Made by a program: the position numbers and the translations under genes | Part shown: in pieces, positions 3,370 to 16,206 of the stretch | How positions within the stretch are numbered: the first letter of the stretch is position 1 | How the letters are laid out: each line of letters starts with the position of its first letter | Virus record (IMG/VR): IMGVR_UViG_3300030114_000036 | Coordinates: 1-27,168 of that record | DNA: 27,168 bases | Strand: one strand, 5' to 3' | From: a virus | The notes under the pieces: generated by a model | What the model was told of the DNA's origin: nothing | The model's input: the letters and a program-made list of their open reading frames with translations, nothing else | Databases searched by the model: none

Positions 3370-3570
3370 ATGACCTGGAAAACAATTTTTCACACAGCAG
3401 AAAACCGGATGGAACATGATTTCGGTGGTGGCAATACAGTAGTTGTAGATTTCAATCACAACATGGCCTATAAGCTCCGAAATGGAGATGTAAAAGACAG
3501 TTTCAGCGTGGCCGGAATGCTCCTTGAAACATTCACTCAGATTTTAGAGAACATTGCTAAATCAATCTGA
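3370..3570 (+). CDS. Small early protein of unknown function
   Basis: 66 residues starting MTWKTIFHTAENRMEHDFGG. The first 45 residues alternate hydrophobic and polar (NTVVVDFNHNMAYKL), suggesting a small beta sheet; the last 20 form a hydrophobic helix. It starts 3 bases after the HTH gene stop and ends 1 base before the next ATG. No family recognised. Confidence 0.65.
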   Translation: MTWKTIFHTAENRMEHDFGGGNTVVVDFNHNMAYKLRNGDVKDSFSVAGMLLETFTQILENIAKSI

Positions 3571-3571
3571 T

Positions 3572-3775
3572 ATGTGCAGCGAGTGTCACGGAGCTTATCA
3601 ATGCTCACAGTGCGGAGATGGAGAGGTTCTCAGAGAACAAGAGCCTATCGGATTCAAATGCGATAATTGCGGTGAAGTAAAACCGCTAACCCTATGCGAC
3701 GGATGGTCGATGTGCGATGAATGCATCGCAATTCACGAAGAGCAATTACAAGAACTAATCACTCAAATCTACTAA
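3572..3775 (+). CDS. Small zinc-ribbon-like protein with four CxxC motifs
   Basis: 67 residues from ATG at 3572, one base after the preceding TGA; a TTG 18 bases upstream would overlap the previous gene and is less likely. Four motifs CSEC, CSQC, CDNC and CDEC could bind two zinc ions. The C-terminal helix is acidic and glutamine-rich (HEEQLQELITQIY). Such small treble-clef or ribbon proteins in early phage operons often bind nucleic acid or host proteins, but no specific role can be assigned. Confidence 0.7.
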   Translation: MCSECHGAYQCSQCGDGEVLREQEPIGFKCDNCGEVKPLTLCDGWSMCDECIAIHEEQLQELITQIY

Positions 3776-3776
3776 A

Positions 3777-4016
3777 ATGACAACAATTCAAAGAATTGAA
3801 AAGGCAATGGAAATAGCTGATATAGCAGACAGGATCGAATCAGCACTACACCTTGAAATGCAACTAAAAGCAACTAAAGAACAAGGGAAAGAGCTATACA
3901 TGTATGTCGGTGGAAAATACCTCGACAGGCAAATCAGAATTGCTGAGGCTCGCAAGAAGCGAAACGAGAAAAGGTTTGATAAAATCATAGGGCTATGCGA
4001 ACTTACAAGCAACTAA
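3777..4016 (+). CDS. Small helical early protein
   Basis: 79 residues, almost entirely predicted helix (RIEKAMEIADIADRIESALH, then LEMQLKATKEQGKELY), with a basic segment RKKRNEKRFDK near the end. It begins 1 base after the previous stop and overlaps the next gene by 22 bases. Coupled, dense packing supports it as real. Function unknown. Confidence 0.6.
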   Translation: MTTIQRIEKAMEIADIADRIESALHLEMQLKATKEQGKELYMYVGGKYLDRQIRIAEARKKRNEKRFDKIIGLCELTSN

Positions 4017-4240
4017 CCATTGATGGACTGGTAGAGACAAAGCGAGTTTGGGTTCGTGATAAGAAAGGCAAGTTCTCTAAAAAGGGAATGTCAAACGAAG
4101 AAAGGCTCTATCGTGAAAATAACGTCCTCAAAGCAAAGAATCACTCATTAGAAAGACAACTCAAAAACAAAGACTTCCAACTGGAAGCATTAGAAAATAA
4201 ATTATGGACACAGCAAAATTCAAAGAAACAACAAGCCTAG
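3995..4240 (+). CDS. Small coiled-coil early protein
   Basis: 81 residues. The N-terminus (TYKQLTIDGLVETKRVWVRD) is followed by a basic linker KKGKFSKKG and then a coiled coil over about residues 35-75 (NNVLKAKNHSLERQLKNKDF). Its last 37 bases overlap the start of the RecT gene. A role as partner of the recombination proteins is possible by position only. Confidence 0.6.
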   Translation: MRTYKQLTIDGLVETKRVWVRDKKGKFSKKGMSNEERLYRENNVLKAKNHSLERQLKNKDFQLEALENKLWTQQNSKKQQA

Positions 4241-5109
4241 ATCTAACAGGCTTTTCCGAGGTCAATTTTTTAGACTGTCCGGATAGAAGAGATTTAGTAA
4301 AACAGATACCGGTAGCAATTCAATTCATCACAACGCTGATGAAAATTCACCGAATCAGTCAGGAGGAGGCAGAGACAATTTTCTCGAAAGAATCACTCTA
4401 CTACAGAAAGTCATTTCAGACAAATGCAAAACTGATGGAGTGCACCGGGATAAGTCTTTACTCTGCATTTTTAGAGATCGCAGTAAATAACCTATCTATC
4501 CAACCGGGGCAAAAGTCAGAGGCTTTCCTTGAGAGTCGCTCAACAAAAGTAAAACAAAACGGAGCAGCTGATTCGTGGATACAAACTGCAAATTTTGTAA
4601 TCACGGCTTACGGTGAATTAAATCTAAGAATCCGATCCGGTCAAATCATCCGAATGAATAACCCTATCATTCTCTACGATGGAGATCATTTCCAACCAAA
4701 AACGAATGAACGAGGAGAGTTGACAATCGAATATATGCCGTGCATTCCTCGCGAATCAAAAACGATATTTGGATCGTATGTGTGTATCGTTTTGCCGAAC
4801 AATGGAATTGATTTTAAGTGGTTGCTACTAGATGACATTGAAAGATTAAAGAACTACTCACTGAAGCAAAATAAAACCTCTGCAAATGCTCTATACACTT
4901 CACAAGATGGAGGGATTGACCCGGGCTTCTTGAGTACAAAGACAATCAAACACGCAATGGCAGCCTACACAAAATTGAGAATAGGTGAATTTGTAAGCTT
5001 TGAGGGCGAAATTGAAGAGGTGGAAGCTAGTCCCTCGTTTGCAGCCGAAACGCAAACAGAAGAGAAAGCCCCTGGGGTAGTAGTTTTCGATGATTCAGAA
5101 GGATTTTAA
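4204..5109 (+). CDS. recT: RecT-family single-strand DNA annealing protein
   Basis: 301 residues. The core about residues 75-250 matches RecT: YSAFLEIAVNNLSIQPGQ is the early helix seen in RecT as ...a.LNiA..gLsl.P; then come FVITAYGELNLRIRSGQI, a YDGDHF segment, GSYVCIVLPNNG, and LSTKTIKHAMAAYTKLRIGEF at the end of the fold. The C-terminal 45 residues are acidic and probably disordered (VEEVEASPSFAAETQTEEK region). RecT-type proteins anneal complementary single strands and work with a 5'-3' exonuclease; here a PD-(D/E)XK nuclease gene follows two genes downstream. The start overlaps the preceding gene, but no later ATG would keep the N-terminus of the fold. Confidence 0.88.
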   Translation: MDTAKFKETTSLDLTGFSEVNFLDCPDRRDLVKQIPVAIQFITTLMKIHRISQEEAETIFSKESLYYRKSFQTNAKLMECTGISLYSAFLEIAVNNLSIQPGQKSEAFLESRSTKVKQNGAADSWIQTANFVITAYGELNLRIRSGQIIRMNNPIILYDGDHFQPKTNERGELTIEYMPCIPRESKTIFGSYVCIVLPNNGIDFKWLLLDDIERLKNYSLKQNKTSANALYTSQDGGIDPGFLSTKTIKHAMAAYTKLRIGEFVSFEGEIEEVEASPSFAAETQTEEKAPGVVVFDDSEGF

Positions 5110-5128
5110 ACAACACAAATAAATTATC

Positions 5129-6322
5129 ATGACAACAGATTTATCAACAACAGATTCAGGACTATTGGAAGTTCAAAAACTTCAAGAGATAGTCGCAACA
5201 GCACCGGAGATTTTACAGCTAAATATCTCTAGCAAGACAAAAGCTATCGAAGCGGGTCAAAAATTAGTCGAAATTGCCAAAACTGGAATGAATGACTTTA
5301 ACGATGAACAGCTATCTATCTTTTTATCGAAAGCAAAAAAGACAATCGACTCAATGAACGAAAGGCGCAAGCCATTTACTCAAATTGTCGATGCAGTGAA
5401 AAAACAGTTCACTACTCTTGAAAGTGAACTAAAACCTATCATGGACGAAATCAAGTCCATTCGTGACAGTTACGCTACTGAGAAGATGAAAGCAAAACAA
5501 GAAGCTGATCGTATCGCTCAGGCAAAGTTGGACAAAGACAAAGAGATTATCGAGATTCGCAGACTTTGTGATATCGAGATCGGAAGCTTTTTCAACGAGT
5601 GTATCACCAATACAAAAAAGGATATCGCTGCTTTCTTCAACGAATTAAACCTTGAGACTATTGAGGGAGCGGATCAAGTCTTTTCTACCACTTCAACGAA
5701 CTTTGATATTCGCTACTCCATTCCTGAAACAATCGAGCTTGGAAACTGCATGACTCACACCAATGTCGAAGATGTGAACAAAATTATCAAGGATGCTCTC
5801 TCAGTTAATTACTCAACTAAAAAGTATGATTACACCCGCGAGATAAACTCAACTATCAAAGAATATCGCGATAAAATTCCATCTAAAAAAGCAGAGTTGA
5901 TTGAGATATCAAAGGCCGGAGAGGAAGAAAAGAAACGACTTGAAGAATTAGCTACTAAGCGACAACTAGAGGAAGCGGATAGACTGAAAAAGCAAGCCGA
6001 GGATCTAGCTTTAAAATCAGAAGAGGAGGCCTCAATTAATGCCAGTGCATCAACAGCCGGCGCAATGATTGACGCAAGCGTGGCAAGTGCTGAAACTCCA
6101 AATGTAAAAGAGGGATATCTTATCACTCTGAAGTCAACCGCCGGATATTTACTTCTAGTCCAATTTTGGTTTGAGAAAGAGGGAAAATCACTCTCAGCAG
6201 ATAAGTTTGAGAAGTTTACTTTCGACCGCGTGAAAAGATTTTGTGAGGCTTATGCAGCCAAAAATGAAGAACTTATTCAAAACCCCCTACTTTCCTACGA
6301 ACCTATTTATAAGGCAAAATAA
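5129..6322 (+). CDS. Coiled-coil protein between RecT and exonuclease, possible Gam-like accessory
   Basis: 397 residues. Residues 25-130 are helical (LVEIAKTGMNDFNDEQLSIF; KKTIDSMNERRKPFTQIVDA; FTTLESELKPIMDEIKSIRD) and recall the N-terminal part of phage proteins that accompany RecT/RecE systems. A central globular part follows (about 140-245). Residues 250-300 form a strongly charged coiled coil (EEEKKRLEELATKRQLEEAD), then an Ala/Ser linker and a C-terminal domain (GYLITLKSTAGYLLLVQFWF). The slot between annealing protein and exonuclease suggests a recombination accessory such as a host-nuclease inhibitor, but the sequence does not prove it. Its TAA overlaps the next ATG by one base. Confidence 0.75.
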   Translation: MTTDLSTTDSGLLEVQKLQEIVATAPEILQLNISSKTKAIEAGQKLVEIAKTGMNDFNDEQLSIFLSKAKKTIDSMNERRKPFTQIVDAVKKQFTTLESELKPIMDEIKSIRDSYATEKMKAKQEADRIAQAKLDKDKEIIEIRRLCDIEIGSFFNECITNTKKDIAAFFNELNLETIEGADQVFSTTSTNFDIRYSIPETIELGNCMTHTNVEDVNKIIKDALSVNYSTKKYDYTREINSTIKEYRDKIPSKKAELIEISKAGEEEKKRLEELATKRQLEEADRLKKQAEDLALKSEEEASINASASTAGAMIDASVASAETPNVKEGYLITLKSTAGYLLLVQFWFEKEGKSLSADKFEKFTFDRVKRFCEAYAAKNEELIQNPLLSYEPIYKAK

Positions 6323-6981
6323 TGGATCCTTATTATTCAAGAAATGAAGTGTCAAACTCGGATTTGAGTTGGCTTAAAAACCAAATCTTTCCCAGGGCGA
6401 TGCCCGATTCTAAATCAGCATACAGGTTTGGAAATCTAATCGATGCAATGATAACCGAGCCGTATCGGGTTGACTATTTCAAGCGATCACTCGATGGAGA
6501 AGTTTTCTCAATTGAAGAATTTACACAGGCAGAGAACATGAAAAAGGCCTTTTGGAATGATGACTTCAGTAGAATGATTGCAGAAAAAGCAGACGGTCAA
6601 AAGAAAATGACAGCACTCCGACAAATGGACTATAAAGGTTTTGATTTCGAACTAAACACCCGCTGTAAGTGGGATTTATGGAGGCAAGACTGGAACTGGG
6701 GAGGTGACATTAAAAGCACGGCAGCCACATCACAGAAAGAGTTTGAAACAGCTTGCAGGTATTTTGATTACGACCGACAAAGAGCGTGGTACATGGACAT
6801 TGCCGGAAGCGATAGAGATGTTTTAATCGGAATATCAAAGAAAAACTTCAAGGTATTTAAAATATCAATCAATCGTGATTCAGACTTTTACAAAGACGGC
6901 CGAGATAAATACTTAGAACTTTCTTTCAGATGGTTTCTACTGTATGGAGATTCAAAACCTATAAAAACTTACGAAACATAA
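6322..6981 (+). CDS. PD-(D/E)XK exonuclease, RecE/lambda-exo-like
   Basis: 219 residues. It begins YYSRNEVSNSDLSWLKN, the substrate-entry motif of RecE/Exo VIII-type nucleases (a Y..r..iSnS.L..l pattern). AYRFGNLIDAMITEP follows (the helix that often carries His in relatives; here Asp). The catalytic core is CKWDLWRQ, then WGGDIKSTAAT, where D-x-K (Asp, Ile, Lys) is the PD-(D/E)XK signature, then FDYDRQRAWYMDIAG, the conserved Q..aY helix. The protein should resect 5' strands to feed the RecT protein. It is compact compared with E. coli RecE and corresponds only to the nuclease domain. The start ATG directly abuts the previous stop. Confidence 0.82.
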   Translation: MDPYYSRNEVSNSDLSWLKNQIFPRAMPDSKSAYRFGNLIDAMITEPYRVDYFKRSLDGEVFSIEEFTQAENMKKAFWNDDFSRMIAEKADGQKKMTALRQMDYKGFDFELNTRCKWDLWRQDWNWGGDIKSTAATSQKEFETACRYFDYDRQRAWYMDIAGSDRDVLIGISKKNFKVFKISINRDSDFYKDGRDKYLELSFRWFLLYGDSKPIKTYET

Positions 6982-7010: not shown

Positions 7011-7292
7011 ATGACACAAGAGGAAATCAAATCACACTTCGAAAGCATATCCGGAGTAAAACTAGAAATCAAAGACGGTAAATTTTATTATGGAGGTTAT
7101 CTCGACTTGAGAGGAACAGCAATCGCTTCATTGCCCGATAACCTGACAGTGGGAGGTTCTCTCGACTTGGAAGGAACAGCAATCGCTTCATTGCCCGATA
7201 ACCTGACAGTGGGAGGTTATCTCGACTTGAGAGGAACAGCAATCGCTTCATTGCCCGATAACCTGACAGTGGGAGGTTATCTCGACTTGTAA
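7011..7292 (+). CDS. Leucine-rich-repeat phage protein, N-terminal fragment ending at an in-array stop
   Basis: 93 residues: an N-terminal helix (MTQEEIKSHFESISGVKLEI) followed by repeats of 20 residues of the form GGYLDLRGTAIASLPDNLTV. These resemble the short bacterial LRR class with the LP..L repeat core. The frame ends at TAA (7290-7292), exactly where other repeats have AGA or GAA (TTG-AGA-GGA or TTG-GAA-GGA). One G to T change from a GAA unit explains it. The same frame continues open to 8063. Without the stop the protein would be 350 residues. The fragment alone lacks the C-terminal domain and is unlikely to be fully functional. Confidence 0.7.
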   Translation: MTQEEIKSHFESISGVKLEIKDGKFYYGGYLDLRGTAIASLPDNLTVGGSLDLEGTAIASLPDNLTVGGYLDLRGTAIASLPDNLTVGGYLDL

Positions 7293-7597
7293 GGAACAGC
7301 AATCGCTTCATTGCCCGATAACCTGACAGTGGGAGGTTATCTCGACTTGAGAGGAACAGCAATCGCTTCATTGCCCGATAACCTGACAGTGGGAGGTTCT
7401 CTCTACTTGAGAGGAACAGCAATCGCTTCATTGCCCGATAACCTGACAGTGGGAGGTTATCTCGACTTGAGAGGAACAGCAATCGCTTCATTGCCCGATA
7501 ACCTGACAGTGGGAGGTTCTCTCGACTTGAGAGGAACAGCAATCGCTTCATTGCCCGATAACCTGACAGTGGGAGGTTATCTCGACTTGGAAGGAAC
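7092..7597 (+). repeat. Tandem 60-bp in-frame repeat array (about 8.4 copies)
   Basis: Seven complete 60-base units (7141-7560) flanked by partial ones encode a 20-residue repeat. Only three places vary: TAT or TCT (Tyr/Ser), GAC or TAC (Asp/Tyr), and AGA, GAA or TAA (Arg/Glu/stop). The third variable codon falls at 7110, 7170, 7230, 7290 and so on up to 7590. Because each unit is 60 bases, unequal recombination changes copy number without changing frame. The near-identity implies recent expansion or ongoing homogenisation. Confidence 0.95.
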
Positions 7598-8063
7598 CAT
7601 CGACACAAGCAAAGTAAATCGAAACATTGACGAAGAATCATTCTTTTCATGGAGAAAAAACAAATACATAAAAGCTGACGGTATTTTCTCTAAGGTGATT
7701 TCACACAAAAGGAATGTATTCAAAATTCAGAAAATAGGAAAAACAAAAGAGTCTTATTTGGTCACTGACGGAAACGGAAAATTCTCGCATGGCGATACGA
7801 TCAAGGAGGCGAAAGAGGATCTTATTTTCAAGATTTCAAATCGTGATAAATCTGATTACAAAGGCCTGACTCTTGAAAGTAAAATGAGTTTTGAAAAAGC
7901 AATCGAATGCTATCGAATCATAACCGGTGCTTGCAGTTTTGGAACTAAAGATTTTGTTTCAAATAGACTCATCAAAAAGGAAAAGGAGTACACTATCGCT
8001 GAAATGATTGAAGTTACAAAAGGAGAATACGGAAACTCAACTTTTAGCCAGTTCTTTTCGTAA
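7311..8063 (+). CDS. Leucine-rich-repeat phage protein, C-terminal part (separated from its start by a nonsense codon)
   Basis: This is the continuation of the reading frame begun at 7011, after the TAA at 7290. The frame has no early ATG; the listed start is a TTG inside the next repeat, so independent translation is doubtful and the locus is best seen as one interrupted gene (7011-8063). After the last repeat (about 7596) comes a non-repeat domain of about 155 residues (ESFFSWRKNKYIKADGIFSK, SYLVTDGNGKFSHGDTIKEA, SFEKAIECYRIITGACSFGT, EMIEVTKGEYGNSTFSQFF). A similar C-terminal domain accompanies such repeats in other Bacteroidetes phage proteins, as far as I recall. Function unknown; LRRs usually bind protein ligands. 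Confidence 0.6.
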   Translation: MPDNLTVGGYLDLRGTAIASLPDNLTVGGSLYLRGTAIASLPDNLTVGGYLDLRGTAIASLPDNLTVGGSLDLRGTAIASLPDNLTVGGYLDLEGTIDTSKVNRNIDEESFFSWRKNKYIKADGIFSKVISHKRNVFKIQKIGKTKESYLVTDGNGKFSHGDTIKEAKEDLIFKISNRDKSDYKGLTLESKMSFEKAIECYRIITGACSFGTKDFVSNRLIKKEKEYTIAEMIEVTKGEYGNSTFSQFFS

Positions 8064-8482
8064 TGGCAAAAACTATCCGCTATCAAAAACTAAACGGTAG
8101 AATTCAATTTCCGGATAAGCTATTGACGAATATCGAAAATATGATTGATGAATCAACCGATGGAGATCATGTTATCTCCATCGGAAAGCCAAAAAGGAGT
8201 ATTGATCAAAACGCTTTGATGTGGATGTGGTTCCGATGCCTTTCTGAAGACACTAAAAGCGAGCCTGGGGAATTCTATCAATACTATTGCGAAAGATACC
8301 TATCAGAGCGATGCACCTATACTGGTAATAAGTTCAAATCAGGAGGTACATCCACTCTCAAATCAAACGAATTCACAGATTTTTTAAACAAGATACAATC
8401 CGATGCAGCATCGGAGTTCAGGGTTATACTTCCAATCCCTGAAGACTTATACTGGGAAGAATTTTACAATCAATTCAAATAA
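8063..8482 (+). CDS. NinB-like recombination protein
   Basis: 139 residues. KPKRSIDQNALMWMWFRCLS matches the NinB signature of a basic residue, Q-N and a Trp-rich helix; FKSGGTSTLKSNEFTDFLNK and AASEFRVILPIPEDLYWEEF match the later helices, including the ST..L...EFT.F pattern. Lambda NinB (Orf) binds single-stranded DNA and assists Red or RecBCD-independent recombination. Its position between the RecT/nuclease block and the helicase fits this. The ATG overlaps the preceding TAA by one base. The family call is moderately sure. Confidence 0.6.
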   Translation: MAKTIRYQKLNGRIQFPDKLLTNIENMIDESTDGDHVISIGKPKRSIDQNALMWMWFRCLSEDTKSEPGEFYQYYCERYLSERCTYTGNKFKSGGTSTLKSNEFTDFLNKIQSDAASEFRVILPIPEDLYWEEFYNQFK

Positions 8483-15667: not shown

Positions 15668-15705
15668 TAAGGAATAATACAAATAAACTTGCAAACTCAT
15701 TGACT

Positions 15706-16206
15706 ATGCCAGCACCTAAAGAAGACTTTAAACAAATCAAAGGGACGAATTATAAAATATCAGATTTCGGCAATGTAATAAATGACAAAAGCGGGAAGAT
15801 ACTTAAAAGAGGTGTAAATACAGAGGGGTATGCATTTGTAAATCTAAAAGGGAAATCTGTAAAAATACACAGGCTCGTTGCTTTATACTTTATCCCAAAT
15901 GAAAATGAATTAAATGTTGTGAACCATAAAGATGGGGATAAATTAAATAACTCGGTAACAAATTTAGAGTGGTGTACTCAATCATATAATTTAAAGCATG
16001 CATATTCGATTGGATTAAAAAAGCCAGTTATCAATGTTGAATCAAAAAATGGATTCTCAAAGAAAGTGAAAGACACTAATACTGGTAAAATATTTGATTC
16101 AGTAACTCAAGTGATTAGAATAGGAAATTATGGAATAAAATATTCAACATTAAAGTCAATGTTGAATGGACAAAATCCAAATTATACAACATTAAAATAT
16201 GTTTGA
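15706..16206 (+). CDS. HNH homing endonuclease with NUMOD4 domain
   Basis: 166 residues from ATG at 15706. After MPAPK, a NUMOD4 DNA-binding motif begins at once (EDFKQIKGTNYKISDFGNVI), then the HNH core VKIHRLVALYFIPNENELNV and VNHKDGDKLNNSVTNLEWCT, with the expected His, His and Asn, then a NUMOD1-like C-terminal part (KIFDSVTQVIRIGNYGIKYS). Free-standing HNH endonucleases cut a target site lacking their gene and spread by repair. The first five codons copy those of the small terminase gene, so this element appears inserted at the terminase start and uses its start codon and translation signals. Its base composition is more AT-rich than its neighbours. The TGA overlaps the next open frame. 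Confidence 0.88.
   Translation: MPAPKEDFKQIKGTNYKISDFGNVINDKSGKILKRGVNTEGYAFVNLKGKSVKIHRLVALYFIPNENELNVVNHKDGDKLNNSVTNLEWCTQSYNLKHAYSIGLKKPVINVESKNGFSKKVKDTNTGKIFDSVTQVIRIGNYGIKYSTLKSMLNGQNPNYTTLKYV

Follow-up and report, generated by a model that had tools for sequence, protein, structure and literature searches.

Our analysis revealed that the gene at positions 7011-8063 of the window, by which we mean the whole 27,168-bp stretch of DNA analysed here, belongs, as judged from its sequence, to a large undescribed phage family with about 80 loci in IMG/VR. We consider it rather probable that this gene encodes a two-part binding protein whose leucine-rich-repeat (LRR) array turns over by recombination among its own units, and that the TAA codon interrupting its reading frame is a by-product of such turnover. 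The window is a virus record of a tailed phage with RecT, exonuclease VIII-like, NinB, ParB-like, helicase, NinG and terminase genes. The features needed here are listed below, where x1-x3 are the three variable codons of each unit and L numbers are the loci compared.

4204..5109, + strand: RecT-like single-strand annealing protein (SSAP), upstream of the LRR gene
6322..6981, + strand: exonuclease VIII-like / DUF3799 protein, upstream of the LRR gene
7011..8063, + strand: gene combining LRRs with the C-terminal domain, its 350 codons interrupted by a single internal stop; homologous at its start to the intact L005 gene
7011..7091, + strand: N-terminal segment preceding the array (MTQEEIKSHFESISGVKLEIKDGKFYY), with a homologous start in L005 and L052
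7092..7597, + strand: leucine-rich-repeat array of 8.4 in-frame 60-bp units, the full units having an identical backbone and three variable codons each
7290..7292, + strand: TAA stop at x3 (the third variable codon) of the unit 7272-7331, read in frame 1
7339..7352, + strand: stretch holding all three differences from L003/L031, at 7339 (x1), 7344 (x2) and 7350 (x3, TGA in L003)
7593..8063, + strand: conserved C-terminal domain with no assigned function; His, Lys and Cys invariant in 58 relatives
8063..8482, + strand: NinB/Orf-like recombination mediator, downstream of the LRR gene

The repeat structure described by the first-pass annotation was recovered in full, since TRF reports a single strong tandem array at 7092-7597 (8.4 copies with a period of 60, 95% matches and no indels), and frame 1 of 7011-8063 gives 350 residues whose sole internal stop is the TAA at 7290-7292, in a position where the other copies have GAA or AGA; this TAA is one base away from the Glu codon at x3 of the sister units, and the frame behind it is open through to 8063. 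What that annotation had not seen is that the variation is restricted to three codons per unit, and that the stop falls in one of them. In the eight full units the variable sites are 8, 13, 19 and 20 of the 60 bases, all nonsynonymous and with zero synonymous differences among the units, and they lie in codon 3 (x1, TAT/TCT), codon 5 (x2, GAC/TAC) and codon 7 (x3, AGA/GAA/TAA), so that the residue choices are S/Y at x1, D/Y at x2 and R/E/stop at x3.

Relatives were found by scanning IMG/VR with the part 3' of the array, which gave 29 and then 80 loci, and further ones occur in three bacterial MAGs or genomes, in the isolate phages Tetrasphaera TJE1 and Riemerella CRP5 and CRP6, and in Dulem virus 31. 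They have in common a tandem-repeat solenoid followed by a conserved C-terminal domain of about 140 residues, in which H66, K80 and C114 are invariant among 58 aligned sequences (A1/A2 alignments), and the window protein carries the characteristic motifs HGxTxxEA, YRxxTGACxxG and GxYG behind its repeats. No family for this domain was found in Pfam, PHROGs, NCBIfam or PADLOC, and no significant fold match in PDB (best E 0.2), while its BFVD matches are only unannotated or LRR-named phage proteins; moreover, a search of plasmids found no member, and a literature search nothing on a phage family of this architecture. The repeats in front of the domain are mostly 20-residue LRRs, and in distant members they become glycine-rich, SGDYAQLAS, NSSVEA or CTIKAG repeats. 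For instance in L085, L088, L090, L091, L095, L096, L097 and L100, the same domain stands behind GYGSGD (glycine-rich), NSSVEA or SGDYAQLAS repeats, where again a few positions alternate between two residues.

The repeats of the window belong to the LRR superfamily. The closest structure, PDB 8z5u chain 0, an LRR protein of the bacterial polar flagellar motor, shares the 20-residue pattern LPxxLxVxGxLxLxxTxI (E 5e-33, Foldseek probability 1.00, 34% identity), and matches extend to the LRRs of SspH/SlrP; it differs in that its repeats are diverged, this C-terminal domain is lacking, and it is part of a bacterial motor rather than the product of a phage early-region gene. The Pfam LRR models all score below their cut-offs on the window protein. 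For L005, an intact relative, structure prediction gave a solenoid with good confidence (pLDDT 86).

As the first-pass annotation had stated, the C-terminal domain shows no damage: it is identical in L003, which is of the window's own strain, and differs from that of L002 by 11 synonymous and 2 nonsynonymous codons, a ratio that points to purifying selection. This bears on simple decay, in which the phage lineage no longer needs the gene. A nonsense codon so early in the gene would suit such a history, the next in-frame ATG being at 7884, too late to retain the C-terminal domain; but the gene has no other lesion and its domain is conserved as described, and we regard decay as very improbable. 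Re-initiation behind the TAA was also considered, GGAGG occurring about 10 bases before an in-frame TTG in every unit; but the next in-frame ATG is the one at 7884, and Bacteroidota generally make little use of Shine-Dalgarno sites, and we therefore give this route little weight. Stop reassignment was likewise rejected, because TAA, TGA and TAG end 15, 9 and 4 of the 28 other genes in the window.

Across 28 relatives' arrays, amino-acid-changing variation is found at x1 in 21, at x2 in 23 and at x3 in 23, and synonymous variation at the same codons in 1, 2 and 0, respectively. In the seven-unit array of L042, the eleven-unit array of L049 and seven units of the window, all 51 of the 51 backbone bases are identical, yet each holds five or six unit types; and although x2 and x3 are only 6 bp apart, all four of their combinations occur in L019, L022, L042 and L049, which together with such identical backbones fits the exchange of existing codons in short tracts. 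Targeted mutagenesis of the variable codons, for example by a diversity-generating retroelement, would also agree with a variation limited to x1-x3 and with two different x3 stop codons in one strain. We consider it extremely improbable, however, as no reverse transcriptase is found in the window, the L003 record or 13 other virus records (no RVT_1 match in the first two, which are possibly fragments), the variation is not adenine-specific, and within arrays the variable codons show next to no change at their third positions, unlike what random mutagenesis would leave.

Comparison of closely related genomes, which the first-pass annotation had called for, revealed differences of the same kind, and two pairs from different metagenomes speak most strongly for change in the array. 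The window and L003/L031, the same strain from another metagenome, differ at 3 positions in 13,660 bp, namely x1, x2 and x3 of a single unit, and L023 and L024, the same phage from different metagenomes, differ at 3 positions in 4,723 bp, all in x1 and x3 of one unit, although in both pairs the unit concerned is the outermost one beside a contig end, the least reliable part of an assembly. The gene of the isolate Riemerella phages is 741 bp in CRP5 and 609 bp in CRP6, and these 132 bp are 2 x 66 bp, in frame, with the reservation that the circular CRP5 record opens inside the array and its unit number may thus be mis-trimmed. Taken together, these sequences support in-frame recombination of the array in this gene family.

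A precedent is provided by the TAL effectors of Xanthomonas, which likewise consist of near-identical tandem repeats with few code residues. Experimentally selected TAL effector arrays change by repeat loss and by recombination between repeats, where a code position had changed, its new codon came from a sister repeat, and misalignment of the tandem repeats without RecA has been inferred as a rearrangement route (PMC7845958). The array differences and the unit change between CRP5 and CRP6 match this mode of change, measured in the TAL effectors, by which near-identical repeats swap units or lose them. The likeness concerns array evolution only: TAL effectors are plant-pathogen effectors with another fold, a helical DNA-binding repeat of 33-35 residues, and a proven DNA code, whereas the phage array is a solenoid of 20-residue LRRs, in which any code would be hypothetical.

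For the stop codon, the first-pass annotation had proposed a reversible recombination switch. Such a dedicated switch, in which the stop unit is retained and exchange aided by RecT and the exonuclease toggles the gene, would profit from several of the observations: loss of any unit preserves the frame because the units are in frame, the RecT, exonuclease and NinB genes flank the gene (the former two just upstream, as annotated), whole units have changed between CRP5 and CRP6, and several unrelated phages, among Edno5, EBPR podovirus 1, TJE1, CRP5/6, L047, L049 and L052, have an SSAP gene near an LRR gene, as do all of those named. However, none of the 20 other arrays that are complete from the start codon to the C-terminal domain carries a stop. 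Moreover, of the 42 relatives' records only 10 give a match to a RecT or ERF model, a count that covers these two SSAP families only and includes many fragmentary records, and the arrays of L016 and L019, phages without detectable RecT or ERF, are equally homogeneous. A conserved partnership with RecT was accordingly rejected, it being plausible that RecT is a helper rather than a required partner, and we judge a dedicated stop-based switch unlikely, indeed clearly improbable. What stands of the proposal are the in-frame units, the two-unit change in the Riemerella phages, the same-strain array differences, the undamaged C-terminal domain and the stop-free copies of the gene in L002 and L005.

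Besides the window, the only stop-bearing arrays are those of L003 and L047, both with the stop in outermost units at contig ends: in L003 it is a TGA at x3 of the outermost unit, and in L047, another phage, two neighbouring units (positions 1-232) both have TGA for their first Gly codon, so that the nonsense unit appears copied; a reading of TGA as Gly was discarded there, as TGA ends another gene of L047. In IMG/VR, minus the window's own record, neither the stop-bearing unit nor the gene start had a second exact copy. Of the 80 loci, 44 have a contig end in the 1.1 kb upstream of the C-terminal domain and 7 have one in the 1 kb downstream of it, that is, over half of the relatives' contigs break in or beside the array. 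The longest exact self-repeat of the window array is 112 bp as read and 167 bp with the stop codon masked; in most other assembled metagenomic arrays it is 67-119 bp (108-119 bp in L005, L016, L019, L023 and L042; 135 in L022 and 147 in L071), and in L049 and L052, apparently isolate genomes, it reaches 179 and 235 bp. The largest assembler k in the pipeline behind these contigs we take to be 127. The odd unit, by keeping the self-repeat at 112 instead of 167 bp, thus makes it easier for an assembler whose k goes up to 127 to get across the array, and the rare stop-bearing unit may explain why the window array assembled at all.

The same figures, with most assembled arrays lying just under 127 and the other stops sitting at contig ends, would be expected if the stop were a sequencing or assembly artefact, in which an erroneous or very rare k-mer path was kept while the true path formed an unresolvable loop. 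This is possible, though we hold it to be rather unlikely, as the window stop is internal to the array and flanked on either side by about 200-300 bases of assembled repeat, x3 is also a stop, albeit a different codon, in another assembly of this strain, and both stops hit a naturally variable codon, x3 holding only about 10% of the single-base nonsense routes in the units. We conclude that the TAA represents a nonsense allele, either recent or in the minority, made and removable by array turnover, or else an error that was selected in the same way.

Altogether, the turnover explanation would run as follows. The solenoid of near-identical 20-residue LRRs would display on one of its faces the three variable residues of every repeat, forming a binding surface, and the conserved C-terminal domain would probably carry out or anchor the activity, for which the invariant Cys and His leave room for a putative enzymatic function. 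The array would evolve by swapping, losing and gaining units in register among its near-identical repeats, through misalignment at replication or single-strand annealing, for which RecA, RecT or ERF would not be strictly needed; such exchange would keep the backbone uniform, while selection would keep the three variable residues diverse. The TAA would then be a recent or low-frequency nonsense allele of x3 in one unit, gained and lost with its unit, and over-represented among assembled contigs since a short-read assembler can get through the array thanks to the odd unit. By eye, neither a signal nor a membrane segment can be made out in the LRR protein, and the gene is frequently found among replication and recombination genes, which suggests a role in intracellular recognition, perhaps of a host factor or defence.

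The arrangement recalls the variable lymphocyte receptors (VLRs) of lamprey and hagfish, which likewise have LRR units with a conserved backbone and variable residues on one face (VLR-B profile, E 1e-6). VLRs are assembled somatically from donor cassettes, whereas the units of the phage array vary in place within one array. Closer at hand, the LRR protein of Edwardsiella phage Edno5 (AYP69195.1; L105:5962-6705) shows the same S/Y, D/Y and R/E choices and is encoded close to exonuclease VIII and RecT, but Edno5 is a gammaproteobacterial phage and the protein has another C-terminal region; conversely, the 'ribonuclease inhibitor' of Riemerella phages CRP5 and CRP6 has the C-terminal domain in common and lies near an ERF gene, but its repeat is of 22 residues. 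One may speculate about a modular recognition code, in which one amino-acid lexicon would recur, spelled in different codons, in Bacteroidota and Edwardsiella phages, and the two-way choices S/Y, D/Y and R/E of each unit would be rewritten by repeat recombination toward a changing target, e.g. a host protein of defence, nonsense units serving to switch the gene off for a time; we consider this improbable.

The family is undescribed and widespread, and its recognition surface appears to be rewritten via repeat recombination far faster than the remaining genome. If this is true, phages would own a VLR- or TALE-like tuning of a binding protein, together with a conserved C-terminal domain that is directly testable. 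It also means that short-read assemblies of such arrays would be biased to alleles with odd units, nonsense ones included.

Several further observations were made in the course of the comparison. In L052 (3155-4429), a 12-unit array with a near-perfect backbone, small deletions in the variable region of two adjacent units jointly restore the frame. The public record of EBPR podovirus 1 (L106:10-642, JF412294.1) starts part-way through an LRR array that lacks annotation and precedes RecT and exo, and its assembly probably stopped at this array. The phage L027 carries a tandem pair of LRR arrays, at 3449-4405 and 4601-4900. Finally, a NUMOD4/HNH endonuclease gene (15700-16206; Pfam HNH_3, NUMOD4) adjoins the terminase genes of the window and is probably a homing endonuclease.
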